Made by a program: the position numbers and the translations under genes | The notes under the pieces: model-generated | Databases searched by the model: none | Seen by the model: the letters and a program-made list of their open reading frames with translations, nothing else | What the model was told of the DNA's origin: nothing | NCBI GenBank assembly: GCA_027622905.1 | Contig: JAQBVV010000019.1 | Coordinates: 1-36,493, forward strand | DNA length: 36,493 nt | Source of the DNA: Acidobacteriota bacterium | GTDB taxonomy: Bacteria; Acidobacteriota; Vicinamibacteria; Vicinamibacterales; UBA2999 | Direction of reading: 5' to 3' | Shown: positions 213 to 35,555 of the stretch, one piece after another | Layout of the letters: each line of letters starts with the position of its first letter | Numbering within the stretch: position 1 is the stretch's first letter

Positions 213-1913
213 CTACCGAGTGTAGTAGACCAACAGAAACGCGCTCAGGATCAGCGAGACCCACAGCACCGTGTTGCCGGTCGGCCATGTGCGCGCGAAC
301 AGACCGTACGGGCCCGCCGAGTGGTACACACTTTCGATCGCTTTCGCCAGTTGTCCGCGCACCATGGCCGAGGACGCCGCGAAGCTCGCCGAGGCTCCCT
401 GACGCAGACTGCCGTACATCGTCGGCAGGATCCGTCGATACACCCAGTCGGTATCCAGGTTCACCGAAGGGGTCTCCTGCGGATAGAAACCGGTCCGCAT
501 CAACACGGCGAACGCCAGCGCCGCCCACAACAACAGCTGAAACGATGTGACCACGTGCTCGACCGTGAACGGCTGATAGCCCACCGGGTACGGCAGGATC
601 GAGTACAGCGGCCCCGGAACGATGCCGATGAACAGGCACAGCGCGGCCGTAGCGCCCATAGCGATACGCATGTTCCACGGGGCCTCCTCGCAGCGCTTAC
701 CCGAGTCGTGGCCGAAAAAGGCAAAGAACGGAATCTTGATCCCGGAATGCTCCATCACGCCGGCTGACGCAAACAGCAGGCCCAGGAAGACGATCGTCAT
801 GTGGCCCTCGCCCACCGCGCTCAGGATCATCGACTTGCTCACGAATCCCGACAGCAGCGGAAAGCCTGCGATCGACGCTGCACCGATGACGCAACAGACG
901 GTCGTGAACGGCATCGATTTGTAGAGCCCGCCCAGCTCGGAGGCCTTCACCGTCCCCACGCGATGCAGGACCGCGCCCATCGACATGAACAGCAGCGACT
1001 TGTACAGGATGTGGGCAAAGGCGTGCGCTGCGGTGCCATTCAGAGCCAGTTCGGTGCCCACGCCGATACCAACGACCATGAAACCTAGCTGGTTGTTGAG
1101 GCTGTAGGACAGGACCCGCCTGAGGTCGTTCTCGATGACGGCGAAGTAGATCGGGAAGAGCGTCATCGTGACACCGATGTAGATGAGGATCTCGGTCCCG
1201 GCGAAGCTCCGCGCCAAGGCGTACACGGCCAGCTTGGTCGTGAAGGCGCTCAGAAACACGGTCCCCGTGGGGGTCGCCTCGGGATACGCGTCCTGCAGCC
1301 AGTTATGGAGCAACGGGAAGGCGCATTTGATGCCAAACGCAATGAAGATCAGGTTCCGGCCAATGCTCCCCAGCCCCAGGTGGTCAAAGGCGATCGACCC
1401 GGTCTCGTGCACGTGAAACAGGATGCCTGACAGCAGAATCACGCCCGACCCCACCTGAATGATCAGGTAGCGCATGCCGGATCGGTACGATCGTTCGGTG
1501 CGGCTTGCCCAGATCAGGAACACCGAGGACAACGCCGTCAGTTCCCAATAGACAAACAAGGTGATCAGATCACCGGCAAACACCGCGCCGATTCCGGCAC
1601 CGGCGTAGACCAGTCCGGAGATGTGTTGCACGTTGTCCCGAACGTGCAACGCGTAGATCACCGACAACAGCCCGGCGATGTGAAAGATCAGCCCGAACAC
1701 CAGACTGAGACGGTCCACGCGAACCAGACTGAGCGAATAGTCGAACATCGACAGGGACAGGTGATCGCCGGGCGCGCCGAACAAGAGCAGCACGTGCAAC
1801 AGACTCGCGACGGGCAGCGCGACCAGGTAGGCGTTCTGCACGCGTCCGCGCAGCAATGGCACCAGGACGGCGCCCAGGATCAGGAGCAGACCGGGGGGAA
1901 GACTAGCGATCAT
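213..1913 (-). CDS. Mrp-type antiporter, third proton-channel subunit (MrpD/NuoL-like)
   Basis: This is a proton-conducting membrane subunit of the NuoL/M/N (PF00361) superfamily, about 566 residues with roughly 14-16 membrane segments. The key charged residues of an antiporter-like subunit are visible: the Glu in FVYWELTAL, the Lys in FGIKCAFPLLHNWLQD, the Lys in FTTKLAVYAL and the Lys in ILYKSLLFMS. The C-terminus has an extra amphipathic stretch and a final helix. I chose ATG 1913 because upstream in-frame codons give a non-conserved Cys/Ser-rich peptide, and this start overlaps the preceding gene by 11 bp. It is the last gene of the operon and the third such subunit in it. It probably adds another ion pathway to the complex. 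The exact subunit name is uncertain. Confidence 0.85.
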   Translation of the reverse strand: MIASLPPGLLLILGAVLVPLLRGRVQNAYLVALPVASLLHVLLLFGAPGDHLSLSMFDYSLSLVRVDRLSLVFGLIFHIAGLLSVIYALHVRDNVQHISGLVYAGAGIGAVFAGDLITLFVYWELTALSSVFLIWASRTERSYRSGMRYLIIQVGSGVILLSGILFHVHETGSIAFDHLGLGSIGRNLIFIAFGIKCAFPLLHNWLQDAYPEATPTGTVFLSAFTTKLAVYALARSFAGTEILIYIGVTMTLFPIYFAVIENDLRRVLSYSLNNQLGFMVVGIGVGTELALNGTAAHAFAHILYKSLLFMSMGAVLHRVGTVKASELGGLYKSMPFTTVCCVIGAASIAGFPLLSGFVSKSMILSAVGEGHMTIVFLGLLFASAGVMEHSGIKIPFFAFFGHDSGKRCEEAPWNMRIAMGATAALCLFIGIVPGPLYSILPYPVGYQPFTVEHVVTSFQLLLWAALAFAVLMRTGFYPQETPSVNLDTDWVYRRILPTMYGSLRQGASASFAASSAMVRGQLAKAIESVYHSAGPYGLFARTWPTGNTVLWVSLILSAFLLVYYTR

Positions 1914-2166
1914 AGTAGTCCTCGTCCCGCATGAGAATCTTCCGCAGCTGTCCTCCGACCAGCACGACGAAGACGAACACAGCGAACCCAAAGAAGCCGT
2001 AGAATCCGACCCATCCTTCGAAGTCGAAGTGCGCGTGCTTCTGATACAGCAAGTCGGCCGGGATCAACAGCAGGCACACGGCCAGCAGTGCGTAATAGAC
2101 ACGATCCACGTTTCGTGGCATGTCGAGGAAACGCTTCGGTTCCGATGGCGTCTTCCCTCTGCTCAC
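1903..2166 (-). CDS. Small two-helix membrane protein of the Mrp-like operon
   Basis: This is a protein of about 87 residues with two predicted membrane helices (ALLAVCLLLIPADLL and GFFGFAVFVFVVLVGG). They are joined by a loop containing KHAHFDFEGWVGFY, and the tail ends in RDEDYYDR. It sits between two NuoL/M-like subunits, overlapping the downstream gene by 11 bp. I recall similar small proteins with an EGWxGFY loop and an acidic EDYYD tail beside Mrp-D-like genes in other bacteria, but no function is known to me. GTG 2166 is chosen because it lies next to the stop of the upstream gene (2168). ATG 2121, inside the frame, is an alternative. It is likely an accessory or linker subunit, by inference from position. 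Confidence 0.75.
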   Translation of the reverse strand: MSRGKTPSEPKRFLDMPRNVDRVYYALLAVCLLLIPADLLYQKHAHFDFEGWVGFYGFFGFAVFVFVVLVGGQLRKILMRDEDYYDR

Positions 2167-2167
2167 G

Positions 2168-3628
2168 TCACTGTCCCCCCAACGGCGCAAGCAGGCGGTA
2201 GATGCCGTCAGCGTAAAAGAACAGCAGGACGCAGCCCGTGGCCGTCACGCAGAGCGGCACAAGGCAGAACAACGGCGCCTCCTTGACCTTCGGGTTCGCG
2301 ACGCCCTCGGGCGCTGAGAAAAACCCGCGAATGGGCAGCGGCAGCAGGTAGGCGATATTCAGCAACGAACTGACCATGAGTACGCCCACCAGGATCGACT
2401 GGTGAGCGTCGATCGCGCCGAGCGCGAGGTACCACTTGCTCCACGAGCCGCCAAACGGCGGCACACCGATCACGCTCAATGCACCGATCAGGAACGCGAA
2501 GGTCGTGATCGGCATGACCCGACCGATGCCACGCATGTCACTGATCTCCGTCTTGTGGGCGGTGACGTAAATCGCACCGGCGCAGAAGAACAGCGTGATC
2601 TTGCCAACGGCATGCATCGCGATGTGCATGCTGCCACCGATGACACCCGATCCGGTGGCCAGCGCCGCACCCAGCACGACATACGAGAGCTGGCTGATGG
2701 TCGAATAGGCCAGCCGCGCCTTCAGGTTGTCCTTGGTCATCGCGATCAGCGACGACAGCATCACCGTCAACGCCGCGGCGTACATCAGCCAGACGCTGAT
2801 GTGCGTACTGGCCAGCAGGTCTATGCCGAAGATGTACACGGCCACCTTCATCACCGTGAACACGCCGGCCTTGACGACGGCCACGGCGTGCAGCAACGCG
2901 CTAACGGGAGTGGGCGCCACCATCGCGGCGGGCAACCAGCGATGGAACGGCATCAGCGCCGCTTTCCCTGTACCGAAAGCGAACAGAGCCAGGAGGATTC
3001 CAAGCGTCAGGTTGTCCGCCTTGCCCGCGAGGATGCCGCCCTCGGTGAAGTCCAGCGTGCCGGCGAGCGTGTAGGTCCAGATGACAGCCGGGAGCAGCAG
3101 CGCGACTGACGTCGTCAGCAGCACGCCCAGGTACACCCGTGCCCCGCGTCGTGCCTTCTCGTCGCCGTGGTGCGCGACGAGCGGGTAGGTCGAGATCGTC
3201 AACACTTCGTAGAACACGAACAGCGTGAGCAAGTTGCCGGCCAGCGCCACGCCCAGCGCCGCGAAGATGGCAACAGCGAAGCACGTGTAGAAGCGGGTCT
3301 GGTGACCCTCGTCGTGCGATCGCATGTATCCGATCGAGTAGTTCGTCGTGACGATCCAGAGTCCAGACGCGACAAGGGCAAACAGCATGCCGAGCGGCTC
3401 GAGCGTGAACGCGATCGACACGCCTGGGACCACCTCGAACAGCGTAGCCTCAGGACGGAGCCCACTCAGGACATCGGGCACGAGCGACGCAACCACCAGA
3501 AACGTCAGGACGCCTGCGACCAGCGTCGTGGCCTCTCGCACGTTCGGCCGCCGATCGAACAGACCCGTGAGCACAGCCGCCACCAGCGGCAGCGCGAGCG
3601 TCAACAGCAAGACGGTCGATGGGCTCAT
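2168..3628 (-). CDS. Mrp-type antiporter, second MrpD-like subunit
   Basis: This is a 486-residue polytopic membrane protein of the NuoM/MrpD superfamily. The transport residues are present: Glu in FVFYEVLTIS, Lys in GTGKAALMPFHRWLPAAM, and the following PTPVSALLHAVAVVKAG with its Lys in the next helix. A further Lys is in HAVGKITLFFCAG. ATG 3628 overlaps the TGA of the preceding gene in an ATGA junction (3625-3628). Codons upstream of it in this frame overlap the previous gene and show no homology. It forms part of the antiporter membrane domain with the other two large subunits. It differs enough from its neighbour to be an old paralogue rather than a recent duplication. Confidence 0.87.
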   Translation of the reverse strand: MSPSTVLLLTLALPLVAAVLTGLFDRRPNVREATTLVAGVLTFLVVASLVPDVLSGLRPEATLFEVVPGVSIAFTLEPLGMLFALVASGLWIVTTNYSIGYMRSHDEGHQTRFYTCFAVAIFAALGVALAGNLLTLFVFYEVLTISTYPLVAHHGDEKARRGARVYLGVLLTTSVALLLPAVIWTYTLAGTLDFTEGGILAGKADNLTLGILLALFAFGTGKAALMPFHRWLPAAMVAPTPVSALLHAVAVVKAGVFTVMKVAVYIFGIDLLASTHISVWLMYAAALTVMLSSLIAMTKDNLKARLAYSTISQLSYVVLGAALATGSGVIGGSMHIAMHAVGKITLFFCAGAIYVTAHKTEISDMRGIGRVMPITTFAFLIGALSVIGVPPFGGSWSKWYLALGAIDAHQSILVGVLMVSSLLNIAYLLPLPIRGFFSAPEGVANPKVKEAPLFCLVPLCVTATGCVLLFFYADGIYRLLAPLGGQ

Positions 3629-5100
3629 CTCGACAGACCCAGCAGTGACTCGGCCGCGACTCGGGCGACACCGGCAGACCAGCTCGTCTGAAGGCCGAAG
3701 AACAGCGTGGCGCCAATGACGAGGCCCGTCGGCACGAGCAGCGACATCGGCGCCTCGGTCACGTGCGCGTCGCCCTCCGCCGGCTCCTGGAAGTAGGCCA
3801 CCTCGACGACGCGCAGGATGTAGACGAGGGCCAGCAGCGAGCTGACCAGCACGAGCGCAGCTACGACCCAGCGGTCCTGCTCCAGTGCCGCCATGATCAG
3901 GTACCACTTGCTGATAAACCCGGCGGTGACGGGGATGCCGATCAGCCCCAGACCGCCCACGACCCACAGCGCCATCGTCACCGGCATCGTCCGACCGATG
4001 CCCCGCATGCGATCCAGATCCACGGACCCGAGCCGGAACGCGATGCACCCCATCGCCATGAACAGGCCGCCCTTCATCAGGGCGTGGTTGAACATGTGGA
4101 CGATGCTGGCCGTCAGTCCGTTCACCGATGCGAAACTGATCCCAAGCACCATGTAGCCAACCTGGGCCACGCTGCTGTAGGCCAGCATCCGCTTGATGTT
4201 CTGCTGGAAGATGGCCACGGTCGACGCCACGAAGATGCCCACCAGCGCCAGCGGAAGCAGAATCCTGTCCAGCCCCAGTGTGTCGAAGGCGAACCCGACG
4301 CCGAACACCGAGAACACGAATCGCAACAGCACGTACACCGAAACCTTCGTCGACGTGGCCGCGATGAACGCGGTGACGGCGGACGGCGCGAACGCGTACG
4401 CATCCGGTAGCCAGAGGTGCAACGGGAAGAGCGCCATCTTCAGGGCGAGGCCGACCGACAAGAAGGCGAAGGCCACCAGGACGGTCCGCACGCCGGTCAC
4501 ATCGCGGAGACGCTCGGCCATGTCGGCCATGTTCAGCGTGCCGGTCATCTGGTACAGCAGGCCGATCCCGATCAAGATGAACGTCGCGCCCACGGTGCCG
4601 AGAATCAAGTACTGAAAGGCTGCGGTCAGCGCGCGGCGATGCCGGCCGAGGCTGATCAGCGCATAGCTGGACAGCGACGAGATCTCAAGAAACACGAACA
4701 CGTTGAACAGGTCGCCGGTGATCGTCATACCCATGAGTCCGGTCAGGCACAGGAGGTAGGACGTGACAAACAGGTGGTGCTTGCTCTGTGGAATCTCCCT
4801 GGCGATACTGCGCGGCGCGTACGACAGCACGGCCGCGCCGAGACTGGAGACAAACAGCAGTACGAACGCGTTCAGCGCGTCAACGCGGTACTCGATGCCG
4901 TATGGGGCTGGCCAGCCGCCGATGGCATAGCTGATCGTACCGTCCGCGAGCACGCGCTGGAGCAGGGTCGCTGCCATCAGTGGACAGGACCAGATGACGA
5001 CCAGCGCAAACCCCATGACCAGCGTGGGCTGACGGATCAGGACGCAGAGCGGCGCGGCCATCAGTGGAACGACGATCAGCAGGACCGGAAGGTGTTCCAT
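3625..5100 (-). CDS. mrpD: Na+/H+ antiporter subunit D (MrpD/MnhD)
   Basis: This is a proton-translocating subunit of the multisubunit cation/H+ antiporter, 491 residues with about 14 helices. Diagnostic stretches are NVFVFLEISSLSSYALIS (catalytic Glu), SVGLALKMALFPLHLWLPDA (Lys and the HLWLPDAY motif), STKVSVYVLLRF, and FNHALMKGGLFMAMG. It directly follows the MrpC gene, the usual C-D order. The start is either ATG 5100, giving a TGATG one-base overlap with the mrpC stop, or GTG 5103 immediately before it. ATG is preferred. It is the best match to canonical MnhD among the three large subunits here. Confidence 0.92.
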   Translation of the reverse strand: MEHLPVLLIVVPLMAAPLCVLIRQPTLVMGFALVVIWSCPLMAATLLQRVLADGTISYAIGGWPAPYGIEYRVDALNAFVLLFVSSLGAAVLSYAPRSIAREIPQSKHHLFVTSYLLCLTGLMGMTITGDLFNVFVFLEISSLSSYALISLGRHRRALTAAFQYLILGTVGATFILIGIGLLYQMTGTLNMADMAERLRDVTGVRTVLVAFAFLSVGLALKMALFPLHLWLPDAYAFAPSAVTAFIAATSTKVSVYVLLRFVFSVFGVGFAFDTLGLDRILLPLALVGIFVASTVAIFQQNIKRMLAYSSVAQVGYMVLGISFASVNGLTASIVHMFNHALMKGGLFMAMGCIAFRLGSVDLDRMRGIGRTMPVTMALWVVGGLGLIGIPVTAGFISKWYLIMAALEQDRWVVAALVLVSSLLALVYILRVVEVAYFQEPAEGDAHVTEAPMSLLVPTGLVIGATLFFGLQTSWSAGVARVAAESLLGLSR

Positions 5101-5456
5101 CACTCTTCCCGGTTGATGGCGTCCAGATCGTCCTCTTCGATCGTGCCGTAGGCCTCGCGAATGCGGACGATCAGAGCCAGCGCGACGGCGGTCGTGGCGA
5201 TACCTACGACGATCGCGGTCAGAATCAGGACGCTCGGGAGGGGGTGCGTGTAGATATCGGCGCGGATCTCCGCGAAGATGGGCACCGTGCCGCCGCGGAC
5301 TTTACCCATCGTGAGATACAGGAGGAACACCGAGGTCTGGAAGATGTTCAGACCGATGATCTTCTTGATCAGGTTGCCGCGCGCGATCACGACGTAGAAG
5401 CCGGTCATCATCAGGAAGATGACGACCCAGTAGTTGTACAGGCCAAGCGGACTCAT
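5100..5456 (-). CDS. mrpC: Na+/H+ antiporter subunit C (MrpC/MnhC, NuoK-like)
   Basis: This is a 118-residue NuoK-like subunit with three helices and the conserved sequence GLNIFQTSVFLLYLTMG, followed by HPLPSVLILTAIVVGIATTA. In the family this subunit forms part of the ion path between MrpA and MrpD. It ends in an acidic tail (TIEEDDLDAINREE). It is coupled to mrpB by a TGATG junction, with a GTG three bases earlier (5459) as an alternative start. Length and helix pattern are normal for MnhC. Confidence 0.92.
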   Translation of the reverse strand: MSPLGLYNYWVVIFLMMTGFYVVIARGNLIKKIIGLNIFQTSVFLLYLTMGKVRGGTVPIFAEIRADIYTHPLPSVLILTAIVVGIATTAVALALIVRIREAYGTIEEDDLDAINREE

Positions 5457-5881
5457 CACCGCACCCGCTCTCGGCCGGCGAACGCGAAGTAGATCAGCGT
5501 CATGCCGGAGGCGACGGCCATCCCCACGCCGAACTCCACCGCCATCAGGCCCCAGTGTTGCCCATGAATCGGATCGTGGGGACTCAGGGCGTTGTAGTCC
5601 AGGAAGTGGCCCCCCATCAGCATCGTCGCAACGCCGGTGCCTGCGAAGATCAACACACCCAACGCGAAGAGTGATTCCAACACAACCGGTGGCGCAATGC
5701 GGATGGCGCTGTTCAGACCGTAGACCAAGGCGTAGAGGATGATGCCCGCCGCGAAGATGACACCGGCCTGAAATCCGCCGCCCGGGCCGAAGTCACCGTG
5801 AAACTGCACGTAGAGTCCGAACAGCAGGATGTACGGCATCAGGATCTTGGTGACGACCCGCAGGATGGTGACCGTCGTCAC
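5456..5881 (-). CDS. mrpB: Na+/H+ antiporter subunit B (MrpB/MnhB)
   Basis: This 141-residue protein belongs to the MnhB family (PF04039), with four predicted helices. The family signature GDFGPGGGFQAGVIFAAG is clear near residues 30-47, and the N-terminus TILRVVTKILMPYILLFGLY fits MnhB. GTG 5881 overlaps the stop of the preceding DUF4040 gene in a GTGA junction. The subunit is membrane-embedded and is part of the antiporter complex. Nothing is unusual apart from the GTG start. Confidence 0.93.
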   Translation of the reverse strand: MTTVTILRVVTKILMPYILLFGLYVQFHGDFGPGGGFQAGVIFAAGIILYALVYGLNSAIRIAPPVVLESLFALGVLIFAGTGVATMLMGGHFLDYNALSPHDPIHGQHWGLMAVEFGVGMAVASGMTLIYFAFAGRERVR

Positions 5882-6429
5882 CTCGGCGTCTCCCCATCGG
5901 ACGGCGTGTCATCGCCGCGGACCCGCCTGTGGCGTCCCCGCAACAGCAACAGAACTGCGATTCCCGCGGTGAAGATCACCGTTGTCTCGCCCAGCGTGTC
6001 GTACCCGCGATAGCTGCCCAGCACCGCCGTAATCACGTTGGGGACGCCGATCTCGGCTTCGGTCTTGTCGACATAGCTCGGCGACGGATACAACTGAATC
6101 GGCGCGTTGGGATCACCGAAGGCCGGCATGTCCATCGTGCCGTAGACGAGCGCAGCTCCCGTCACCAGCACGGCGGCCAGCGGTAGCCAGGGCGAATGCC
6201 CCCTCGGCTTCATATCGCTCCCGGTCAAGGCCAGCGTGGCCAACATGAGCACCGTCGACACCCCGGCCCCCACCGCGGCCTCGGTGAACGCCACGTCAGG
6301 CGCGTCAAGCAGCAACATCCAGCCGGCCCCCAGGAAGCTGTAGATGCCGGTCAACATCACGGCCGCCAGTAGACTGCGCATGCGGGCGATGGTCACGGCA
6401 GTGGCCGCCAGCAGCGTGAGCAACAGCAT
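5878..6429 (-). CDS. DUF4040 / MrpA C-terminal-like fusion subunit
   Basis: This corresponds to the separate C-terminal part of MrpA (subunits MbhD plus MbhE in archaeal hydrogenases). The first part has the DUF4040 signature DAPDVAFTEAAVGAGVSTVL. The second part has NVITAVLGSYRGYDTLGETT followed by a helix, the MrpA-C/MbhE-like motif. The two are joined by a periplasmic loop rich in Pro, so this is a natural fusion. The start is unclear. The Shine-Dalgarno-like GGAGG at 6476-6480 is followed by GTC and ATC, not a standard start. ATG 6429 is the first normal codon but lies inside what should be the first helix region. The true N-terminus is probably 10-13 residues longer. The total is 183-196 residues. 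Confidence 0.85.
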   Translation of the reverse strand: MLLLTLLAATAVTIARMRSLLAAVMLTGIYSFLGAGWMLLLDAPDVAFTEAAVGAGVSTVLMLATLALTGSDMKPRGHSPWLPLAAVLVTGAALVYGTMDMPAFGDPNAPIQLYPSPSYVDKTEAEIGVPNVITAVLGSYRGYDTLGETTVIFTAGIAVLLLLRGRHRRVRGDDTPSDGETPR

Positions 6430-6455
6430 GGTGGTCCACTCGACCGCCAGCAGGT

Positions 6456-6791
6456 CTAGGGTGTCGATGACGTCGCCTCCGTTTCTCGCTCGTCGAGGCG
6501 GGGCTTGAGGCCGTTGGCCAGCGCGGCCCTGGCGAGCGCGTGACCGGACGTCGGGCTGGTGATGAACAGGAACGCCAGGATCATCAGCAGTTTGACAGCA
6601 ACCTGCCAGTCCGGCGACTGACACAAGAGCCCCCCCAGGATCAACGCAGCCCCCATCGTGTCGGTGATGCCGGCGCCGTGCATCCGCGTGAAGAAGTCGG
6701 GAAGCCGGACGATGCCGACACCTCCGACCACAGCGAAGACCGATCCGGCCGCCAGCAAGACCCAGCTGGCCACTGCCAGTGCGCCGCTCAC
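6456..6791 (-). CDS. mrpG: Na+/H+ antiporter subunit G (MrpG/MnhG)
   Basis: This 111-residue protein of the MnhG/PhaG family (PF03334) has three helices. The signature GIVRLPDFFTRMHGAGITDT, followed by MGAALILGG, is typical. The C-terminus is charged and cytoplasmic (LKPRLDERETEATSSTP). It starts at GTG 6791, overlapping the mrpF stop (GTGA), and its end overlaps the Shine-Dalgarno of the next gene. It belongs to the E-F-G accessory module at the start of the operon. Confidence 0.94.
   Translation of the reverse strand: MSGALAVASWVLLAAGSVFAVVGGVGIVRLPDFFTRMHGAGITDTMGAALILGGLLCQSPDWQVAVKLLMILAFLFITSPTSGHALARAALANGLKPRLDERETEATSSTP
6476..6480 (-). promoter_or_regulatory. Strong Shine-Dalgarno without a standard start codon
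   Basis: GGAGG lies near the end of mrpG, seven bases before an in-frame ATC (6468-6466) of the DUF4040 fusion gene. Homology of the protein begins about here, so an ATC start or translational coupling to an internal codon is possible. The next candidates are CTG codons and then ATG 6429. Confidence 0.4.
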
Positions 6792-7072
6792 CGGTCCATC
6801 CTCTCGGCTTCATCGGGCTCCGCGAAGTGGCCGAACCTGATGAACCGCAGCAACGCGACCACACCGATGAAGTTGATCAGCGCGTACACAAGACCAAGGT
6901 CGAGGAACTCAGGTCTATCGGTGAGAAACCCGATGACGGCAATCAGCAACACCGTCTTGGTGCCGAACATGTTCACGGCCAGGATCCGATCGAAGACCGT
7001 CGGGCCCATGGAGGCCCTGGCCAGCGCGAGCGCCATCGTGACCAGGATCGCGACCATGGTGACGTCGAGCAT
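6788..7072 (-). CDS. mrpF: Na+/H+ antiporter subunit F (MrpF/MnhF)
   Basis: This is a 94-residue protein of the MrpF/PhaF family (PF04066) with three helices. The recognisable core is RASMGPTVFDRILAVNMFG, followed by TKTVLLIAVIGFL and the NFIGVVALLRF helix. ATG 7072 overlaps the stop of mrpE (TGATG). The longer open frame upstream of this ATG overlaps mrpE and shows no homology, so it is excluded. Length is normal for the family. Confidence 0.93.
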   Translation of the reverse strand: MLDVTMVAILVTMALALARASMGPTVFDRILAVNMFGTKTVLLIAVIGFLTDRPEFLDLGLVYALINFIGVVALLRFIRFGHFAEPDEAERMDR

Positions 7073-7548
7073 CAGTGTCTGCCTTCCAGCGCCGTCACCT
7101 TGCGATCCATCACGCCCGACTCGACGCCCTGGGCGGATTCGCGGGTGAGCGCGTGAATGACGATCGTGTCGCCCTCGATGTCGATCGAGACGGTGCCTGG
7201 CGTGAGCGTGATCGAGTTGGCGTGAACCACCAGGCCGAGTCCCGTTCGCTGTCCTGCCTTGACCCTGATCACCCGCGGGCTGATGTGCAGGGTCGGCGAC
7301 AGGATCAGCAGCGCAACATCGACGTTGGCTTTGAGGATCTCCCAGAGAAGCCACGGAATGTAGAGCACTGGCCGTAGCGCGAATTCCACCAGGGCGCCCT
7401 CCTCGTCGACCACGCCCATCCGGCGCACGAAGGCAACGATCGCGATGCAGGAGACCAGACCCAGCGTCAGGGTGAGCGCTTCCCAAATGCCCGACCAGAG
7501 CAGCCAGGTCATCGACAGGAGGAGGAAGAGGCTAACGAGGTACTTCAC
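7072..7548 (-). CDS. mrpE: Na+/H+ antiporter subunit E (MrpE/MnhE)
   Basis: This 158-residue protein of the MnhE family (PF01899) is the first gene of the operon. Two N-terminal helices precede RPVLYIPWLLWEILKANVDV, which is typical. A cytoplasmic domain with SITLTPGTVSIDIEGDTIVI then matches the conserved NSITLTPGT region of MrpE. Translation starts at GTG 7548. The operon promoter should lie in 7549-7691. I could not identify convincing -35/-10 boxes there. Confidence 0.94.
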   Translation of the reverse strand: MKYLVSLFLLLSMTWLLWSGIWEALTLTLGLVSCIAIVAFVRRMGVVDEEGALVEFALRPVLYIPWLLWEILKANVDVALLILSPTLHISPRVIRVKAGQRTGLGLVVHANSITLTPGTVSIDIEGDTIVIHALTRESAQGVESGVMDRKVTALEGRH

Positions 7549-8656: not shown

Positions 8657-10849
8657 CTACCTGCACACCCACCCCGTGATATCGGGCTGCGTCTCGTGAC
8701 ACGGTGAGACGTCGGGAGGCGCGTCCAGCGAGTAGTACACCTTGAAGTCGTCGCCGGACCTGCCGTTGAAGCCGACGATCTCGATCGGGTCGCGCGGCTC
8801 GGTGTCGCCCGGCGCCATCCTGTAGTTCATCGAGACAGCGGCCGGCGCGTAGCTCGATCGTCCCGGAAGATCCAGTGACTCGAAGGTGGCATTGCGCACG
8901 ACGGAGCGCTTGGCGGCTCGCGCCAGTTCGCTGTCCGACGCGTACCCGGTCGCGACCACGACGCCAATGTGGTTGCGGAAGTACCCGTTCTCGATCACGA
9001 CTGACCCGTCGCCGCGCCCGGGCTCCAGCCGCGCCTGGTTTGGGTAGAACGGGCTGGCTACACCGACGCGAAGACCCTGGATGTCGGCATCTGTGACCAC
9101 CACGCTCTTTGCGGCATAGTTCGAGAACCAGAGACCCACGGGAGCGTCGAGGTCACTCACGAGTACCGATGTGTCGCCGCGGACCGTCAAGCGATCGACG
9201 ACCAGCTTGTCTGTTGGCGTCGCCGTCACGCCGTGACGCGAAGGATGCCAGACGCGAAAATTCGTGACCTCACCGTTCCAGCCCCACACCGCGCCCGCCT
9301 GGATCGCGCCGTAAGCCTCGTTGTTCGTGAACTCGAGCACACCCGAAGCAGTCGTATCGAGCTCGACCGTTTCGCTTTGCAGCGTGGGATCGGCGCCTTT
9401 GAAGGCCGGGATCCTGATCGAGCCGAGCCCGCCAGCGGCCAGCCCGAAGCCGACCGCGTCGGCGTTGGCCGCGACGTTGTTGCGGATGTAGTTGTGCGGC
9501 CCGCGGAACCACAACCCGGCCCCCTCGCCCCCGGGGTCGGGCGTCGGACCACCGTAGCCGCTGCGCGGCGCGAAGTCGCCAGAGCCCGCGATGCGCATCG
9601 CGAAGTTATGTTCGAACACGTTGAACGCCTCGTTGCCGTCCTCGGTGGCGATGCCTGCGCCCCCGGTGTTGTACACAACGTTGTCCCGCACAAGGCCGTA
9701 GTGGCTGTTATGGATCGTGACTCCCCACTTCGGGGCTTCGTCCACGGCGTTGCCGATCAGTTGGAACTGGTACCCGTCCTCCGGCGTCGTCGTCGGACCG
9801 AAGTAGTGATGGAAGTGGATCGCATACCGCCCGATCTGGTTCTCGCCGGCGTGGATCATGTGTCCGTCGCCGTCAAACATCGTGTTGTCGAGCGGCCCCA
9901 TCTTCGTGCGTCCCATGCCCTGCACAGCTACATAGCGAATGTCGACGTCGGCGCGGGCCATGAAGATCGTGTGTCCGCGGGTGCCCTCCGGGTTCTCGGA
10001 ACGGATGAGCACGTTGCGTGTGAGATTCCCAACGTGCGGAAGGAATTCGAGTGTTCCCTCTGGCGTTCGTGCCCCGACGTGATCGAACTGGAGCGCGGCT
10101 TCGAGCGTCACCCGGTTGCCTGCCACCGACCTAACCCGGAGCCTTTCATCACGGGAGACGAACCCCGCCCGGCGATCGCGCTCTCGCAGCTGCCGCGTGT
10201 CTGGAATGACGACCTCGTCACCGGCCGCCCAACCGGCTGGTTCGTCTTCAAGCAGCAGCGTGGTCTGCCCGGCGAGCGGCTCGGCAGCCAGACGCAGGAA
10301 CGTGGTGGGCTTGACCGCGCCGTGCATTCTGACGGTACCAAGACCCTGGATGCCCGTGCCGATCTGTGCGGGATCGAGGCCATCATCGGTGGCCTGGTCC
10401 GCAATGATGATCTCGGCCATGGCGTCCCTGGCGACAGGCTGGGCCTCGGTCCCAACTTCGAGAACCCCGTCGTCCATGACGGTCAGATTGACGATCCGCA
10501 TGTGCGTGCTGGCGTCGGTGCTGAACCTGAGGCGTCCGTTCACCTCGATGCAATCGAGTCGAACATCGCTGGCAACATCGTAGACAACGTCGTGTCCGGC
10601 CTCGATACGCACCTTGTCGTCAACTCCAGGCACCCGCTGTGGGGACCACGTCTCGGGATCCGACCACGCCCCGCCTGTGGCGCTCGTGACGCTGGGATTC
10701 GCGCAGAAGTACGGGACCCCCTGCGGCACGCCGCTCAGCGGCGCTGTATGAGTATGCGCGTCCTGACCCAAGGCTGGCTGCGTAGCGCAGAACAGGCCGG
10801 AGATGGCGATAAGCAGTCCAACGACGGTCCGAGTGATCTTGGCAGACAC
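8657..10849 (-). CDS. Secreted G8-domain, right-handed beta-helix protein
   Basis: This is a 730-residue exported protein. The signal peptide covers about residues 1-30 (VVGLLIAISGLFCATQPALG). A G8-like domain follows (GAWSDPETWSPQRVPGVDD, then strands ending near residue 150). This domain is known from CEMIP/TMEM2-type proteins and bacterial surface proteins. Residues about 200-680 have the repeated short strands and Asn/Gly turns of a parallel beta-helix (for example NSHYGLVRDNVVYNTGGAGI and GPHNYIRNNVAANADAVGFG). Similar proteins bind or cleave polysaccharides, but no catalytic residues can be assigned here. GTG 10849 is preferred because of AAGGAGG upstream and the signal peptide. It is divergent from the cytochrome c gene. 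Confidence 0.8.
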   Translation of the reverse strand: MSAKITRTVVGLLIAISGLFCATQPALGQDAHTHTAPLSGVPQGVPYFCANPSVTSATGGAWSDPETWSPQRVPGVDDKVRIEAGHDVVYDVASDVRLDCIEVNGRLRFSTDASTHMRIVNLTVMDDGVLEVGTEAQPVARDAMAEIIIADQATDDGLDPAQIGTGIQGLGTVRMHGAVKPTTFLRLAAEPLAGQTTLLLEDEPAGWAAGDEVVIPDTRQLRERDRRAGFVSRDERLRVRSVAGNRVTLEAALQFDHVGARTPEGTLEFLPHVGNLTRNVLIRSENPEGTRGHTIFMARADVDIRYVAVQGMGRTKMGPLDNTMFDGDGHMIHAGENQIGRYAIHFHHYFGPTTTPEDGYQFQLIGNAVDEAPKWGVTIHNSHYGLVRDNVVYNTGGAGIATEDGNEAFNVFEHNFAMRIAGSGDFAPRSGYGGPTPDPGGEGAGLWFRGPHNYIRNNVAANADAVGFGLAAGGLGSIRIPAFKGADPTLQSETVELDTTASGVLEFTNNEAYGAIQAGAVWGWNGEVTNFRVWHPSRHGVTATPTDKLVVDRLTVRGDTSVLVSDLDAPVGLWFSNYAAKSVVVTDADIQGLRVGVASPFYPNQARLEPGRGDGSVVIENGYFRNHIGVVVATGYASDSELARAAKRSVVRNATFESLDLPGRSSYAPAAVSMNYRMAPGDTEPRDPIEIVGFNGRSGDDFKVYYSLDAPPDVSPCHETQPDITGWVCR

Positions 10850-10981
10850 GGGCGCCTCCTTCTGAGAATGCGCGAATATAGCACGGCGGGCCGGTTGGCG
10901 CCGGGGTTGCCCCAGGGCACACACCAGCCGCCAACCACGGTAGAATGTGCGCTGATACTTAAGCTGACAGGAGCATATCCC

Positions 10982-13848: not shown

Positions 13849-15747
13849 CTAGTTTGAAGGGCGCCTCGTCAGATCCGCGGTCTCCGCGCCTTCAGGCAGC
13901 AGGTGCCAGCCCCGGAGCGCGAGTTCCGTGACGGCCTGTTCGTTCGCGCGTGCGTAGAGGGCGATCGCCGCGCGGTCGCCAGTACGCAGCTTCGCCGAGC
14001 GCGCCATCGGTACGACATGACGGTGTCGCTTCAGGGTAAGAACGACGTAGTTGTCGGAGCGACGGTCGACGACAGCCTGCTCTGCCGACGACTCCTCGGC
14101 GGATTTCTTCACCTCGCGAAACTCAAAATGACCGATCGTCACTTCCGACTGACGCCAGCGGACGTCCCACCGTTCCTCGTCATGGGGACCATCAAAGAGC
14201 ACCTCGGCGCCATGTCGAGCGACATGCTCCGGGGCGCCGTCCCCGCTGGCTGAGCTCACCGACACCAATCCTGTCGGTACGTCGAACTCGTGTCTGGCGT
14301 AATGAACAAACTGGCTGTTGCGGTTCTCGTTGAACGTCGCACCCACAACGGTGCCGACCAGCTCGATACGAGCGCGTCGCAACGTGCGTTCCTGCAGACC
14401 GTCACCAAACACCACGGCAAGACCCTGGCGCTCGGCTGCGTGGCACCGCTGAGGATCGTTATCGATCAGAACCACGTTGGCGCCCTGCGCCCGAAGCTCG
14501 GTCGCCAGCGCAAGCCCGAGTCCCTGCGCGCCGAGCACCGCGATCCGGTCCCGTGCGGCGAGTCGGAGGCCAAGCGCCGCCGACAACGGCCACGCGACGA
14601 CCGCGGCCGACACCACGGTCCCTGAGATCACGAGGAACACCAGCGCTCGCAAGGCGTCTCCTCCGGCGATGCCGTTACTGTCCAGGGCGCTGGCCATCAG
14701 CGAGGCCACCGCGGCCGCCACGATGCCTCGCGGCGCCAGCGCCGCGAGGAACACGCGCTCCTTCGCGGCAAGCTCGGCACCGCGCGTGACGAACCATACG
14801 CTCACCGGGCGCACCACGACGATCAACGTGCCGACCACCGCAGCACCCCGCCAGCCGAGCACTTCGATTTCCGCCATGCCAACGTCGGCCGCCAGAAGAA
14901 TGAAGATCGTGCCAATGAGCAAGAGCGTCAGCTGATCCTTGAATTCCCGCAGGTCCTCGATGACCGGATTCTCGTGATTGCCGACGATGACCCCAGCCAC
15001 GGTGACGGCGATCAAGCCGCTCTGGCTGAGTACGTGCTCACCCAAGTGAAAGATCAGCGTGACGAATGCCAGTACCAGGATGTTCTCAAGACCGCGTACC
15101 AGTTTCTCGAACCGCAACAGCAGCGTCAGGGCAAATCCGCCCGCTGCGCCGATGGCGAGACCAGCCACCAACCGCACGATGAGGTCGCGCATGCCCGCTG
15201 CCGCCTGCGACGTGTCGGTGGCCAGCGTGACCTGAAGCACGAGCACGGCCAGCAGTGCACCGATCGGGTCGATGAGTACGCCCTCGGCCTCGAGCACGGT
15301 CTGCAATCGCGGCCGCAGGCGAAGGTTCCGCACGAGCGGGCCGACCACGGTGGGACCCGTGACCACGACCAGCGCACCGAACAGGGTGGCGAGCGGCCAC
15401 GACCAGTCCAGCCACAGACGCGCCGTCAGCGTCCCGCCCACCAGGGTGATGAGCGCGCCAGTCGTGATGAGGAGTCGGATGACGCGTTCTTCGCGCTTGA
15501 GCCGCTTCAGGTCGAGGTTGAGCGCACCCTCGAACAGGATGATCGCGACGGCAAAATCGACGAGGACAAACAGACTTTCGCCGAGCGCGGCAGGCCTGAC
15601 CCATCCAAGCCCTTCGGGTCCCAGCGCCGCACCGGCCGCCAGCAGGAGGACGATCGCCGGAATGCGCACCAGCTTGGCGATACCTTGAACCGACACGCCG
15701 GCAGCCAGCGCAACGGCAACGATGAGGGCAGCACTCTCTTCTGTCAC
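13849..15747 (-). CDS. CPA1-type Na+(K+)/H+ antiporter with TrkA-N domain
   Basis: This is a 632-residue antiporter of the NhaP/KefB type. About 12 helices occupy residues 1-390, with the ion-binding region FGALVVVTGPTVVGPLVRNL and EAEGVLIDPIGALLAVLVLQ (Asp160). The usual Asn-Asp pair of NhaP is Ile-Asp here. A Rossmann TrkA-N domain follows at about 401-500 (RIAVLGAQGLGLALA and VVLIDNDP), able to bind NAD(H). The C-terminal TrkA-C-like region ends near 632. GTG 15747 was chosen where hydrophobic homology begins. No clear Shine-Dalgarno is visible, and GTG 15807 is an alternative. It exports Na+ or K+ in exchange for protons at the inner membrane, probably gated by nucleotide. Confidence 0.88.
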   Translation of the reverse strand: MTEESAALIVAVALAAGVSVQGIAKLVRIPAIVLLLAAGAALGPEGLGWVRPAALGESLFVLVDFAVAIILFEGALNLDLKRLKREERVIRLLITTGALITLVGGTLTARLWLDWSWPLATLFGALVVVTGPTVVGPLVRNLRLRPRLQTVLEAEGVLIDPIGALLAVLVLQVTLATDTSQAAAGMRDLIVRLVAGLAIGAAGGFALTLLLRFEKLVRGLENILVLAFVTLIFHLGEHVLSQSGLIAVTVAGVIVGNHENPVIEDLREFKDQLTLLLIGTIFILLAADVGMAEIEVLGWRGAAVVGTLIVVVRPVSVWFVTRGAELAAKERVFLAALAPRGIVAAAVASLMASALDSNGIAGGDALRALVFLVISGTVVSAAVVAWPLSAALGLRLAARDRIAVLGAQGLGLALATELRAQGANVVLIDNDPQRCHAAERQGLAVVFGDGLQERTLRRARIELVGTVVGATFNENRNSQFVHYARHEFDVPTGLVSVSSASGDGAPEHVARHGAEVLFDGPHDEERWDVRWRQSEVTIGHFEFREVKKSAEESSAEQAVVDRRSDNYVVLTLKRHRHVVPMARSAKLRTGDRAAIALYARANEQAVTELALRGWHLLPEGAETADLTRRPSN

Positions 15748-15753
15748 GCGATG

Positions 15754-15780
15754 ATCCAGTCCCCAATATATATATTTAGT
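15754..15780 (-). promoter_or_regulatory. AT-rich promoter-like stretch before the CPA1 antiporter
   Basis: A run of alternating A and T (about 15763-15778) in otherwise GC-rich DNA lies 16-30 bases upstream of the chosen GTG start. It could hold a -10 element. No convincing -35 box was found, so this is only a candidate. Confidence 0.3.
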
Positions 15781-15906
15781 GGCGCCAGCCCGCTCGTCCC
15801 TGTTCACACCTTTTCCGAGACTCCCTACGGTGTGCGCGGTCACCAACCACCCGCCAGCCACTATCTGGATATCCGAGGGGAGCTACCGTGGCGCAACTGG
15901 GCGCAA

Positions 15907-23884: not shown

Positions 23885-24583
23885 CTAGTTGAGTTGATGC
23901 ACTCTGTCCACCAGGTACAGAAGCGGAAAAAGAAAGATCCATACGATGTCGACGAAGTGCCAGTACAGGCCCGATAGCTCCACCGGCGTAGACCACTCGG
24001 GTGTGAATCGCTTCCGGTGCGCCATCCAGGTAATGACGGAGAGAATGCCGAACCCGATCACCATGTGCAACGCGTGCAGACCCGTCAACGCGAAATAGAG
24101 CGATATAAAGATCTCGACCTGAGGCGCGTGCGGCCCCTCGAAGGTGAAGTTTTCACCCGGGATGTGATTCAGATCCCACTTGTGCTTGTACTCGAAGAAC
24201 TTGACGACCAGGAACGTCAATCCAAGCGCCATCGTGAGCAGCAGCCATCGTACTGTTGCTTTGGGAAGGCCCGTTTGCGCCGCCCTGACAGCCAGCGCCA
24301 TCGTCAGGCTGCTACCGATCAGCACAACCGTATTGAAACCACCGAGAACGATGTCGAGTTCGAGGCTGCCCTCCGCCCACGCCTCCGGATACCACACCCG
24401 ATACAGCAGGTAGGCCATCAACAGGCCGCCGAAGAACATCACTTCGGTCACCAGGAAGACCCACATGCCCAACGTGGCGGCCTCGTGCTGCTGCCCGAGC
24501 GTCTCGAAATGGTGCTGCAGGTCCGGGTGGTGCGCCTCCCCGTGTTCGTGCGAGTCGACGTGCGCTACGAGCCCGTCAGCCAA
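23885..24583 (-). CDS. ctaE: Cytochrome c oxidase subunit III (CtaE)
   Basis: This 232-residue subunit III of a haem-copper oxidase has about five helices. The family core is present: [33 protein letters not shown] and [20 protein letters not shown]. It starts at TTG 24583, overlapping ctaD by 8 bp with a GGGAG upstream. No better ATG or GTG exists near the conserved His-rich N-terminus ([15 protein letters not shown]). Subunit III stabilises proton uptake. The length suggests the shorter five-helix form typical of caa3 enzymes. Confidence 0.94.
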
Positions 24584-26189
24584 CGTTGCTCTCCCTCGTC
24601 TCGTATCCGTATGGTGCCGCAGTCACGATCGGTTGCTCGGTGAAGTTTTCGGGGATCGGCGGCGATTGCGTCTCCCATTCAAGGCCGACCGCGCGCCACG
24701 GATTCGGACCCGCATCCTTGCCCTTGAAGAACGAATACAACAGGTAACACGCGATCAGCGTGTACCCGACGCCCATGATCGACGCGCCGGCGGACGACAG
24801 CACGTTCAGAACCTGAAACTCATCCGCGTAGGCGTGATACCGGCGCGGCATACCCAGATAACCAACAATGAACTGCGGGAAGAACGTCAGGTTGAACCCG
24901 ACGAAGACGAGCAGCGCAGCCAACGTGGCCGCGCTGTTGGAGTACATCTTCCCGGTCATCTTGGGCCACCAGTAGTGCAGGCCCGCGAAGTAGCCCATGA
25001 TCGCACCGCCGACCATGATGTAGTGGAAGTGCGCGACCACGAAATAGGTGTCGTGGAGGTGCACGTCCAGACCGAGCGCCGCGAGAAACAGGCCCGTCAG
25101 GCCGCCGATCAGGAACAGGCCCATGAACCCGAACACCCACATCATTGGCGCCTGCCACCAGATCGCGCCCCTGTACATCGTCGCGGTCCAGTTGAACGTC
25201 TTGATGGCGGACGGAATGGCGACAGCGAACGACAGAAACGAGAAGACCATCGCGGAGTACGGCGAGATCCCGGAAACGAAGAGATGGTGCGCCCACACCA
25301 GAAAACCAAATACCGCGATGGCCAGACTCGAAAACGCCACGAAGGAGTATCCGAAAATGCTCTTCCGCGAAAAGCACGCGATCACTTCGCTGATCGCTCC
25401 CATCGGCGGAAGGATCATGATGTAGACGGCCGGGTGTGAATAGAACCAGAACAGGTGCTGGAAGAGCACCGGGTCGCCTCCCAATCGAGGATCGAAGAAC
25501 CCGAAGCCCAGAGCCCGCTCGACCGCCAGCATGAGGACCGTGATCGCGATCACGGGCGTGCCCAGGATCTGCACGAGCGACGTCGCGTAGAGTGCCCAGA
25601 TGAACAGCGGGAGCCGGAACCACGTCATGCCCGGGGCGCGCATCCGGTGGATCGTGACCATGAAGTTCAGTCCGGTCAGGATCGAGGAGAAGCCGGCAAT
25701 GAAGATGCCGATGCCCGTCAAGAGCACGTTGGAATTGGAATAGACGCTGCTATACGGCGTGTAGAACGTCCACCCGGTGTCGACACCTCCGAGTATCCCG
25801 GCGGCGATCGTGAACAAAAATCCGATCACGAAGATGTACCAGCTCAGCAGGTTGATCTTCGGGAAGGCCACGTCCTTCGCGCCAATCATGAGCGGTAGCG
25901 CAAAGTTCCCGAGAATCGCCGGCACCGCCGGGATCAGTACGAAGAACACCATGGCCACGCCGTGCATGGTGAACAGCTTGTTGTAGGTATCGTCAGAAAC
26001 CAGATCGCCAAGCGGCGTCGTCAGCTCAACGCGAATGAGGGCGGCGAAGATGCCGCCGATGAGAAAGGCCAGCGACACCACGATCAGGTACATGATCCCG
26101 ATGCGCTTGTGGTCTTTCGTCAGCAACCACGACGCTACGGTGTGCTTGACGTTGAGATAGTTCACGCGCGGGAGGACTGTCGTCGTCAT
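24576..26189 (-). CDS. ctaD: Cytochrome c oxidase subunit I (CtaD, A2-type)
   Basis: This is a 537-residue catalytic subunit of a caa3 oxidase that reduces O2 to water and pumps protons. Haem and copper ligands are His76 (low-spin haem), His252 with Tyr256 ([10 protein letters not shown]), His301 and His302 (WAHHLFVSG), His387 (haem a3) and His389. Asn95 and Asp106 mark the D-channel entrance and Lys330 the K-channel. The D-channel Glu of A1 oxidases is replaced by Ala254, and Tyr250-Ser251 is present. This is the YS motif of A2-type enzymes such as the Rhodothermus caa3. Start ATG 26189 has GGGGAG upstream. It sits 4 bp after ctaC. Confidence 0.97.
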
Positions 26190-26193
26190 ATGG

Positions 26194-27204
26194 TCACTCC
26201 CCTGGACCGCCGGTGTTGTCGGAAGCCGCAGGCGGCGGCGCGGGCGCGCTCGCCTGAGTCGGCGCGGCGGGTCCCGCGGTTGACGATAGCGACTTGATGT
26301 ACTCGATGAGACTCATCACGCCTTCTTCAGTGACGAGTCCCTGAAAAGTGGGCATCAGCGGCCCGTACCCGGCCGTCAGTTTCATCTGCGGAGTCAGGAT
26401 CGACTCGCGGATATAGATGTCATCGATCGCCACGGTGGCGCCCGTGGCTAGCGTTTCCTCCGTCCCGTACTTCCCAGCCAGCGAGGGACCACGCCCGGAT
26501 CCATCGCCGAGGTGACAACCCACGCAACCCAGCTGCTGAAATAACTGCTCGCCACGCGCCGCCAAGGACAACCCTCCGCCCCCGCTCAGCCAGGCCTGAT
26601 AGTCGTCTGGTTCCATGACCACGACCTTCCCGACCATACCGGAATGCGCCGTGCCGCAGTATTCCGCGCAAAACAGATGGTATTCGCCAGTCTTGGTGGC
26701 CGTGAACCAGAGCGAACTGTAGCGTCCCGGTATCGCGTCGGCCTTCACTCGGAAAGCCGGGAAGTACAGGGAGTGGAGCACGTCCTCGGACGTGAACGTG
26801 ATCTTCACCGGACGACCGACGGGCACGTGCAGCTCGTTGATTTCACTCTGACCGTCGATGTGCTGGAAGCGCCACATCCACTGCTTGCCGGTCGAGTAGA
26901 CCTCCAGTGCCTGATCCGGCGCCCGCACGATGTGGAAGAAGACGACCGTCGCCCAGACGAAGATCACCATCGCCACGAGAAACGGGATGATCGACCAGCC
27001 GATCTCAAGCGGGAGCGAGCCGTGGATCGGATGGCCGACCTTCTCGCCCGTCTTGTCCCGATACTTGATCGCGAACACGACGACCAGGACCACGACGAGC
27101 AACGCGAAAAACGCCGTCACCGCGGTAATGAAAAAATACAGGTTGTCCACCTCTGGAGCGAGGGTGGACGCCTGTTCAGGGAAGAGTGGAATACCAGGCA
27201 ACAT
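26194..27204 (-). CDS. ctaC: Cytochrome c oxidase subunit II with fused cytochrome c domain (CtaC)
   Basis: This 336-residue subunit II has two helices (about 22-47 and 69-92) and a cupredoxin domain. The CuA ligands are His144, Cys179, Glu181, Cys183, His187 and Met190 ([13 protein letters not shown]). A cytochrome c domain follows, with Cys227-Val-Gly-Cys230-His231 and a likely distal Met284 (GPLMPTF). This fusion defines the caa3 type. The last 25 residues are Pro/Ala-rich. Both metal centres face the periplasm and receive electrons from the ActE or ActA haems. ATG 27204 follows sco by 14 bp. No cleavable signal peptide is evident. Confidence 0.96.
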
Positions 27205-27218
27205 AAAGCGTTACGGTC

Positions 27219-28118
27219 TCATGCTCGGCTTGGCATCGGCGCGCGCAGGTCGCGGCGACGCATAATCAGGATGAAACCACCCATAAACAACACGGTGACG
27301 ATACCGCCGAGGCGCACCAGGTTCATCACCACCAGGCCATAACGGCCGCTCTCGGGATCGTAGTGAAAGCAGTAGAGCAACAACTCGTCGATCGCCGATC
27401 CGATCCGGCCTTCGCCGGATTCGATCAACGCCAGGCGCAGTTCCCTCGGCGAGTACTCCACGCCGTAAAAGTATCTGGAGAGGCGCCCCTCCGGTGTGGC
27501 GACCAGCACGCCGCTGACATGGGCAAACTGCCCTGTCCGCTCATCGAATTGATAGGTGAACCCCGCGGCTGACGTCACCCGGCTGATCGCAGCTTCATCT
27601 CCGGTCAACAAGTGCCAGGAGTCCGCATCGTTCTCAGCTGACCAGTACTCCAGATGCGCGCGCTTCTTTTCCGCCGCGATCGCCGGCGTATCGCGCGAAT
27701 CGAAACTGATCAACACCACGTCGTAGTCCTGGCCCGCGGCAAACGGCAGCACCTCGAGCGCGCTGGACAGCCCGTTCATGACCTGCGTGCACAGCATCGG
27801 GCACTCGTAGTAGACGAAGGCCAGGAGCACCGGCCTCGTGCCGAACAACTCACCCAGCGTGACCGCCTGACCGTCATCGTCCCGAAACTCGGCATCGAGC
27901 GGCAAAAGCTCGTCGAGGTGCTGCTTGAACGACACCTCCTCGAGCAGCGTCGGCGTAAACGTCGCAGCAACCCCGGGTCCCTGCTGGTCGCCGCTGTAGG
28001 CCGACTGCGCGGCAGGAGCCGCACCGAAGCACACGAACCACAGCGCCAGGCACAGCGTCCCCGACACGATCGCCGCCCCCCGGGCCGGACCGCGCGTGGC
28101 CAAGACGGTGCTCGTCAC
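27219..28118 (-). CDS. sco: SCO1/SenC-type copper chaperone with C-terminal anchor
   Basis: This is a 299-residue thioredoxin-fold protein of the SCO1/SenC family, needed for copper insertion into the CuA site. The copper-binding residues are Cys106 and Cys110 (YYECPMLCTQV) and His200 (GQFAHVSGVLV). A signal segment is at about 13-39, and a C-terminal helix (VRLGGIVTVLFMGGFILIM) gives a second membrane anchor. GTG 28118 overlaps the stop of the previous gene (GTGA). The location between the ACIII genes and ctaC matches its role in oxidase assembly. Confidence 0.93.
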   Translation of the reverse strand: MTSTVLATRGPARGAAIVSGTLCLALWFVCFGAAPAAQSAYSGDQQGPGVAATFTPTLLEEVSFKQHLDELLPLDAEFRDDDGQAVTLGELFGTRPVLLAFVYYECPMLCTQVMNGLSSALEVLPFAAGQDYDVVLISFDSRDTPAIAAEKKRAHLEYWSAENDADSWHLLTGDEAAISRVTSAAGFTYQFDERTGQFAHVSGVLVATPEGRLSRYFYGVEYSPRELRLALIESGEGRIGSAIDELLLYCFHYDPESGRYGLVVMNLVRLGGIVTVLFMGGFILIMRRRDLRAPMPSRA

Positions 28119-30984: not shown

Positions 30985-30989
30985 CGCAA

Positions 30990-35551: not shown

Positions 35552-35555
35552 GCGC

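Follow-up and report, generated by a model that had tools for sequence, protein, structure and literature searches.

We analyzed a stretch of 36,493 nucleotides (nt) of Acidobacteriota DNA (contig JAQBVV010000019.1, hereafter the window) that carries, on the minus strand at positions 213 to 7548, a ten-gene operon related to the Mrp cation/proton antiporters. The reading frames fix these coordinates exactly, the start of the MrpE gene lying at 7548 and the stop of the D3 gene at 213. Most neighboring genes overlap by 1, 4, or 11 nt, and a 46-nt gap separates the genes for D2 and the small protein s. Spacing this tight is that of a single operon. In the order of transcription, the genes are as follows.

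7072..7548, minus strand: MrpE/MbhA-like, 158 amino acids (aa), GTG start (PF01899, E 1.3e-29)
6788..7072, minus strand: MrpF/MbhB-like, 94 aa (PF04066, E 3.8e-18)
6456..6791, minus strand: MrpG/MbhC-like, 111 aa (PF03334, E 2.8e-27)
5878..6429, minus strand: J, fused MbhD (DUF4040, NuoJ-like) and MbhE, equivalent to the MrpA C terminus (PF13244, PF20501; NF009159 over cut-off)
5456..5881, minus strand: MrpB/MbhF-like, 141 aa (PF04039; NF009162 over cut-off)
5100..5456, minus strand: MrpC/MbhG/NuoK-like, 118 aa (PF00420; NF005621 over cut-off)
3625..5100, minus strand: D1, MrpD/MbhH/NuoN-like antiporter subunit, 491 aa (PF00361; best PDB match MbsH, 6u8y_H)
2168..3628, minus strand: D2, antiporter subunit with a NuoL/MrpA-type transmembrane helix (TM) 8, 486 aa (PF00361; best PDB match NdhF, 6hum_F)
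1903..2121, minus strand: s, predicted two-helix membrane protein, 72 aa (no family match)
213..1913, minus strand: D3, antiporter subunit, 566 aa (NF009310 [PRK12668], 729 bits, cut-off 564)

Gene by gene, Pfam returned MNHE, MrpF_PhaF, PhaG_MnhG, MbhD and MbhE in a single open reading frame, MnhB, Oxidored_q2 (MrpC), and three Proton_antipo_M domains. Matches to NCBIfam models were above the cut-offs for J, B, C, and D3, and the best matches for D1 and D2 were clear but subthreshold. The start of J is uncertain, 6429 being the first in-frame ATG. Among relatives, the Glu of the TEAA motif in J is invariant (62/62), and the MrpF/MbhB-like subunit keeps Arg29 in 50/50 and Asp28 in 46/50. A preliminary description of this DNA had reported the same gene order, with a DUF4040/MrpA-C protein and three large antiporter subunits, and Pfam and the reading frames confirm it. 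The MrpA that it described as split, with fused C-terminal parts, is real. We found no intact MrpA (NuoL-like core, lateral helix, and MbhD/E part in one chain); these parts are distributed over J, D2, and D3. The likeness that it drew to MbhA-H also holds, the order E-F-G-J-B-C-D1 being that of MbhA-H, and its statement that hydrogenase and NuoB/C/D/I-type genes are absent is borne out, with no hydrogenase or NuoB, C, D, H, or I gene beside the operon in the window.

Is this arrangement kept in other bacteria? A search for the same ten-gene order in other genomes had been proposed in the preliminary description. Taking as relatives the best 80 of 465 places matched by a D3 search in named genomes, we found all ten genes in the same order in 62, so the arrangement is not due to chance. 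Among the rest, 14 lacked E-side genes (the contig piece being short or cut) and 4 lacked only a detected MrpB match. Hosts included Alpha-, Beta-, and Gammaproteobacteria, Acidobacteria, Gemmatimonadota, Planctomycetota, and Myxococcota, with cultured strains among them (L049, Sedimentitalea xiamensis; L056, Pseudohalocynthiibacter aestuariivivens); the ten-gene set is thus conserved across at least five bacterial phyla. Of 149 genomes sampled from the window's own phylum, 14 had a D3 scoring above its cut-off and 29 had MrpE. Because the window starts at the first base of its contig, the DNA past D3 was read in the relatives instead. Redox subunits just outside the window, which would have spoken against the preliminary description, were not seen: none of the 65 relatives with at least 3 kb of downstream flank had a complex I or hydrogenase redox gene downstream of D3, the nuo-embedded clusters of Gemmatimonadota described next being the exception.

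Two departures from the common arrangement were observed. In two Gemmatimonadota genomes (L151, L194, L195; also L014, L022), all ten genes are found inside a nuo operon, between its nuoM and nuoN, and this operon has its own L, M, and N. In two other genomes (L138/L139, L140/L141), s and D3 are still paired but lie apart from the remaining cluster genes. The order Vicinamibacterales, to which the window belongs, also has a divergent form of the cluster (L143, L144, L183-L188), in which the tail of D3 is mostly 11 to 17 residues longer and proline-rich and s is poorly matched or undetected.

The three antiporter-like subunits have distinct sets of conserved residues. E139, K221, K252, H339, and K398 are invariant in D1 (71 sequences), as are E124, K196, K227, and K360 in D3 (81 sequences). 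In D2, which has no C-terminal extension, H247 and V252 in TM8 are invariant (76/76). Four positions of TM8 mark NuoL and MrpA against NuoM, NuoN, and MrpD (PMC4938563), and His247 and Val252 of D2 are two of these four; both D1 and D3 have Lys at the position equivalent to Val252. The Glu of TM5, the Lys of TM7, and the Lys of TM12 are kept without exception in D1, D2, and D3 (71 to 81 sequences), and all three could therefore conduct protons.

A tree of 118 antiporter-like proteins, including the divergent clusters and copies from the complex I type described below (green complex I), recovered D2 and D3 as clades with support of 100 each in the Shimodaira-Hasegawa-like approximate likelihood ratio test; the main D1 clade also reached 100 (95 with divergent D1 added). 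The D2 and D3 of green complex I form subclades of their own (98 and 99). D1 was placed near NuoN (83), D2 on the NuoL/MrpA side (88), and D3 in isolation on a long branch. In the table for this tree, the MrpD of L146 carries an MrpA label owing to the length of its reading frame, which leaves the D groups unaffected. Approximately unbiased tests did not reject D2 and D3 as sisters (P = 0.42) or D1, D2, and D3 together (P = 0.12), and the grouping of D2 with NuoL and MrpA had support of 53 in a thinned tree. We thus make no claim about the order of duplications; D1, D2, and D3 are nevertheless ancient separate clades across five phyla. Recent duplication of the extra subunits, named in the preliminary description as what would undo its proposal, is rejected on this tree, each subunit being one deep clade across five phyla. 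A weak match of D2 to DabB2 also raised a DAB-type (YbcC/COG3002) reading, which we set aside: no such partner was found among the neighboring window genes checked, and no dedicated search was made.

The small protein s is predicted to form two helices (predicted local distance difference test score [pLDDT], 79). Its Gly45 is invariant and its Glu67 and Tyr70 are nearly so, and a conserved EDYYD-like motif lies at its C terminus. Substitutions in s are concentrated at third codon positions (0.45 versus 0.24 and 0.19), as expected of a coding gene. Pfam, NCBIfam, and the PDB yielded only weak scattered matches and no family that accounts for it. The gene adjoins that of D3 in nearly all loci, although s is weak or undetected in some divergent clusters. 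That s goes with D3 is indicated by the loci in which the s-D3 pair stays together after moving away from the other genes (L138, L140).

AlphaFold2 models were built one chain at a time, from 44 and 32 sequences. The D3 model (mean pLDDT, 82) places TM15 at residues 451 to 474, a lateral helix (HL) at 489 to 533, and TM16 at 545 to 565. Its first Foldseek match was MrpA (7qru_A; TM score, 0.79), and it aligned structurally to NuoL chains as far as residue ∼535; among solved chains, MbsH' is the nearest to D3 in sequence. Judged from sequence and model, the features of NuoL/MrpA are shared out, with the core in D2, the clamp helix in D3, and the MbhD/E part in J.

We then compared the length of HL among related complexes, counting between two anchors chosen by eye, the aromatic residue with which HL starts and the Gly that precedes TM16. 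HL measured 21, 21, and 21 in MrpA (two pumps), 23 in an Mbs-like subunit (two pumps), 44 to 49 in NuoL (three pumps), 54, 54, and 54 in D3, and 73, 73, and 73 in the D3 of green complex I (four pumps). The tail from the HL start to the C terminus had 73 to 78 residues in 77 of 80 antiporter D3 sequences and 98 to 99 in all 8 from complex I. A 26-residue insertion has previously been linked to one additional pump (PMC9040806). Since HL length scales with pump number, we infer a single complex with three pumps in a row, the arrangement that the HL of the antiporter D3 fits best. This lends indirect support to the suggestion in the preliminary description of a complex larger than a standard Mrp.

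Taken together, these results make it likely that all ten gene products belong to a single membrane complex. It would be a Na+ (or K+)/H+ antiporter of the stand-alone group 3 Mrp type, with the gene order of Pyrococcus furiosus Mrp and MbhA-H and with the two-pump block D2-s-D3 in the slot of MrpA. The stand-alone Mrp of P. furiosus has the order EFGBB'CD without mrpA, and deletion data support Na+/H+ exchange by it (PMC8415708). From gene content and order, conservation, residues, helix length, tree, and predicted fold, we infer the assembly, ion specificity, direction, and stoichiometry of the complex as follows. E-F-G-B would form the cation module and J plus C a coupling layer, with D1 (MrpD/NuoN-like), D2 (NuoL/MrpA-like core), and D3 in one row. 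The HL of D3 would run back along the three pumps and clamp them, and s, with its two helices, would be a small subunit attached to D3. Driven by the proton motive force, H+ would enter via three channels while Na+ leaves. Protons per cycle may then exceed those of MrpA/MrpD antiporters, so that cations could be exported when the gradient is steeper or the driving force lower.

Several observations weigh against this proposal. Antiport activity is on record only for Mrp types other than this one, and the AlphaFold2 models are of single chains. The HL of D3, at 54, is slightly above the three-pump value of 44 to 49, and the ruler is not clean in the divergent clusters of Vicinamibacterales, whose D3 tails mostly measure 85 to 91 (one, 114) and have a proline-rich insert. 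The encoding of s-D3 apart from the remaining genes in L138/L139 and L140/L141 is a further point, and it also favors a reading in which one operon specifies two complexes, an Mrp like that of P. furiosus (E-F-G-J-B-C-D1) plus an antiporter or pump that D2-s-D3 would form on their own. The P. furiosus Mrp does work without any MrpA (PMC8415708). However, a D2-D3 pair would call for a much shorter HL than that of D3 (54 versus 21 to 23 in two-pump complexes), and the ten genes are kept together in 62 loci of several phyla; we regard two complexes as unlikely.

Could the operon instead be the membrane arm of a redox-driven pump with peripheral subunits encoded elsewhere, or dock onto complex I? 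The ten genes between nuoM and nuoN in Gemmatimonadota and the presence of D2-s-D3 in green complex I point that way, but the nuo operon in those Gemmatimonadota already has its own L, M, and N, none of the 65 downstream flanks had a redox gene, and the cluster lacks a NuoH/MbhM-like anchor subunit. We judge this reading to be improbable, somewhat more so than two complexes. An ordinary two-pump Mrp in which D2 or D3 is a redundant recent duplicate would accord with the several mrpD genes common in group 3 Mrp (PMC5703873, PMC8415708). However, the D1, D2, and D3 clades predate the split of the sampled phyla and their key residues are invariant and different, so that this last alternative is largely refuted and very improbable.

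Apart from the antiporter clusters, D2-s-D3 occurs without Mrp genes, in the place of nuoL, in eight further loci, seven from Vicinamibacterales (L136, L137, L177-L181) and one from a planctomycete genome (L153). On contigs long enough to show it, the genes run nuoJ-K-D2-s-D3-M-N-A-B-CD-F-G-H-I. Plasmid searches found the closest relatives of this complex I block in rhizobia (∼59% identity for D3). An annotated rhizobial plasmid has the order nuoJ-nuoK-D2-"hypothetical protein"-D3-nuoM-N-A-B-C-D-E-F-G, and a profile match (E 8.6e-18, 37% identity) identifies its hypothetical protein as s. In the available text of PMC9040806, citing Degli Esposti and Martinez Romero 2016, NuoL of green complex I is replaced by two MrpD-like subunits, and s is not mentioned in the portion searched. 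The nuo loci bearing D2-s-D3 are this published green complex I, which occurs outside rhizobia too, in Vicinamibacterales and a planctomycete. The genome of the window has two more nuo clusters (L120, L121; C154, C64), both of which encode NuoL, M, and N of the ordinary kind.

The two forms of D3 differ at position 196 in TM7: all 81 antiporter copies have Lys there, and all 9 copies from complex I (rhizobial L192 included) have Asn. It follows that the additional subunit in green complex I may not act as an ordinary channel for protons, although the literature suggests that extra pumps could add protons (PMC9040806). We lean, with some reserve, toward the view that D2-s-D3 is a portable two-pump block that fits the NuoL/MrpA slot of two machines, an Mrp antiporter of ten subunits with three pumps and a complex I with four, with the length of the D3 helix tracking the size of the row and s a dedicated, hitherto unrecognized subunit of both; in the complex I branch, where D3 has lost the Lys of TM7, the enzyme may translocate fewer protons than one would expect from its number of subunits. 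The relevance to the Mrp/complex I relationship foreseen in the preliminary description thus becomes concrete, in the replacement of NuoL by D2-s-D3 in green complex I and the ten genes set between nuoM and nuoN in two Gemmatimonadota genomes.

The preliminary description implied more novelty than the locus has, since papers on Nitrospira and NCBIfam models cover parts of it and green complex I is already published. In the open-licence papers searched, we found no account of the fixed ten-gene unit across phyla, of s as a subunit shared by two machines, of the HL comparison for the antiporter, or of the Lys/Asn split. The results define an antiporter type that is widespread and includes a small subunit without a name, and they connect Mrp antiporters directly to complex I at the sequence level. 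Related machines with two, three, and four pumps offer a natural series for testing whether one ion moves per antiporter-like subunit per cycle, a central question for complex I, and the Lys-to-Asn change offers a simple way to test the published assumption that extra pumps mean extra protons.

Elsewhere in the window, positions 23885 to 36206 hold a likely alternative complex III and caa3-type oxidase cluster, read mostly from sequence (multiheme cytochrome, FeS/molybdopterin protein, NrfD-like protein, cytochromes, SCO-like protein, CoxB, CoxA, and CoxC). A second, single-subunit cation antiporter (Na_H_Exchanger plus TrkA_N) lies near the Mrp operon at 13849 to 15861, and a G8 domain/CEMIP-type beta-helix protein is encoded at 8657 to 10924.

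How does the operon compare with known systems? Group 1/2 Mrp (A. flavithermus, B. pseudofirmus, Dietzia) has the C, D, E, F, G, and B subunits in common with it, and the MrpA fold matches D3, but MrpA is intact there and split into J, D2, and D3 here. Respiratory complex I is set apart by NuoB, C, D, H, and I, which were seen neither in the window nor in the 65 flanks; the two Gemmatimonadota genomes carry the cluster inside nuo. Green complex I of rhizobia (L192; cited in PMC9040806) has homologs of D2, s, and D3 in order (49, 37, and 43% identity), but it is a full complex I with NuoJ, K, M, N, and A-I, whereas the window operon has no nuo context; its D3 has an HL of 73 and Asn in TM7, against 54 and K196. 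The membrane module MbhA-H of the P. furiosus membrane-bound hydrogenase (MBH) and its relative MBS (PMC7684303) is colinear with the operon (correspondence table in PMC8415708), D3 being closest in sequence to MbsH' and D1 to MbsH, but the MbhJ-N redox or MbsJ-N module has no counterpart in the operon, nor does any hydrogenase-like module. We also observed a bacterial MBH/MBS-like cluster (L155; G012 C21), which encodes NuoH-like, HyfI-like, and HyfG-like proteins, an antiporter subunit, J, B, C, D, E, F, G, and a HyfH-like protein.

As in group 3 Mrp (CPA3), homologs of MrpB, C, D, E, F, and G lie in one cluster, and there is no intact mrpA and at least one mrpD, as in the published definition (PMC8415708), with three antiporter-like genes here. 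The P. furiosus group 3 Mrp (mrpEFGBB'CD; PMC8415708) shares the E-F-G-B/J-B'-C-D order and the absence of mrpA and redox subunits, but lacks D2, s, and D3 and has one antiporter-like subunit rather than three. Extra NuoL/M-like genes beside group 3 Mrp have already been noted in Nitrospira: in the available portions of two papers (PMC7784846, PMC12342949), the Mrp/Mnh cluster of "Ca. Nitrospira alkalitolerans" and Nitrospirales lineage IV is a group 3 Mrp followed by two NuoM/NuoL-like genes. Likened by description rather than by sequence, it is probably the same system as that of the window, although those portions do not include s, the ten-gene unit, or the helix length. The operon is best filed as a variant of group 3 Mrp, with putative monovalent cation/H+ antiport activity.

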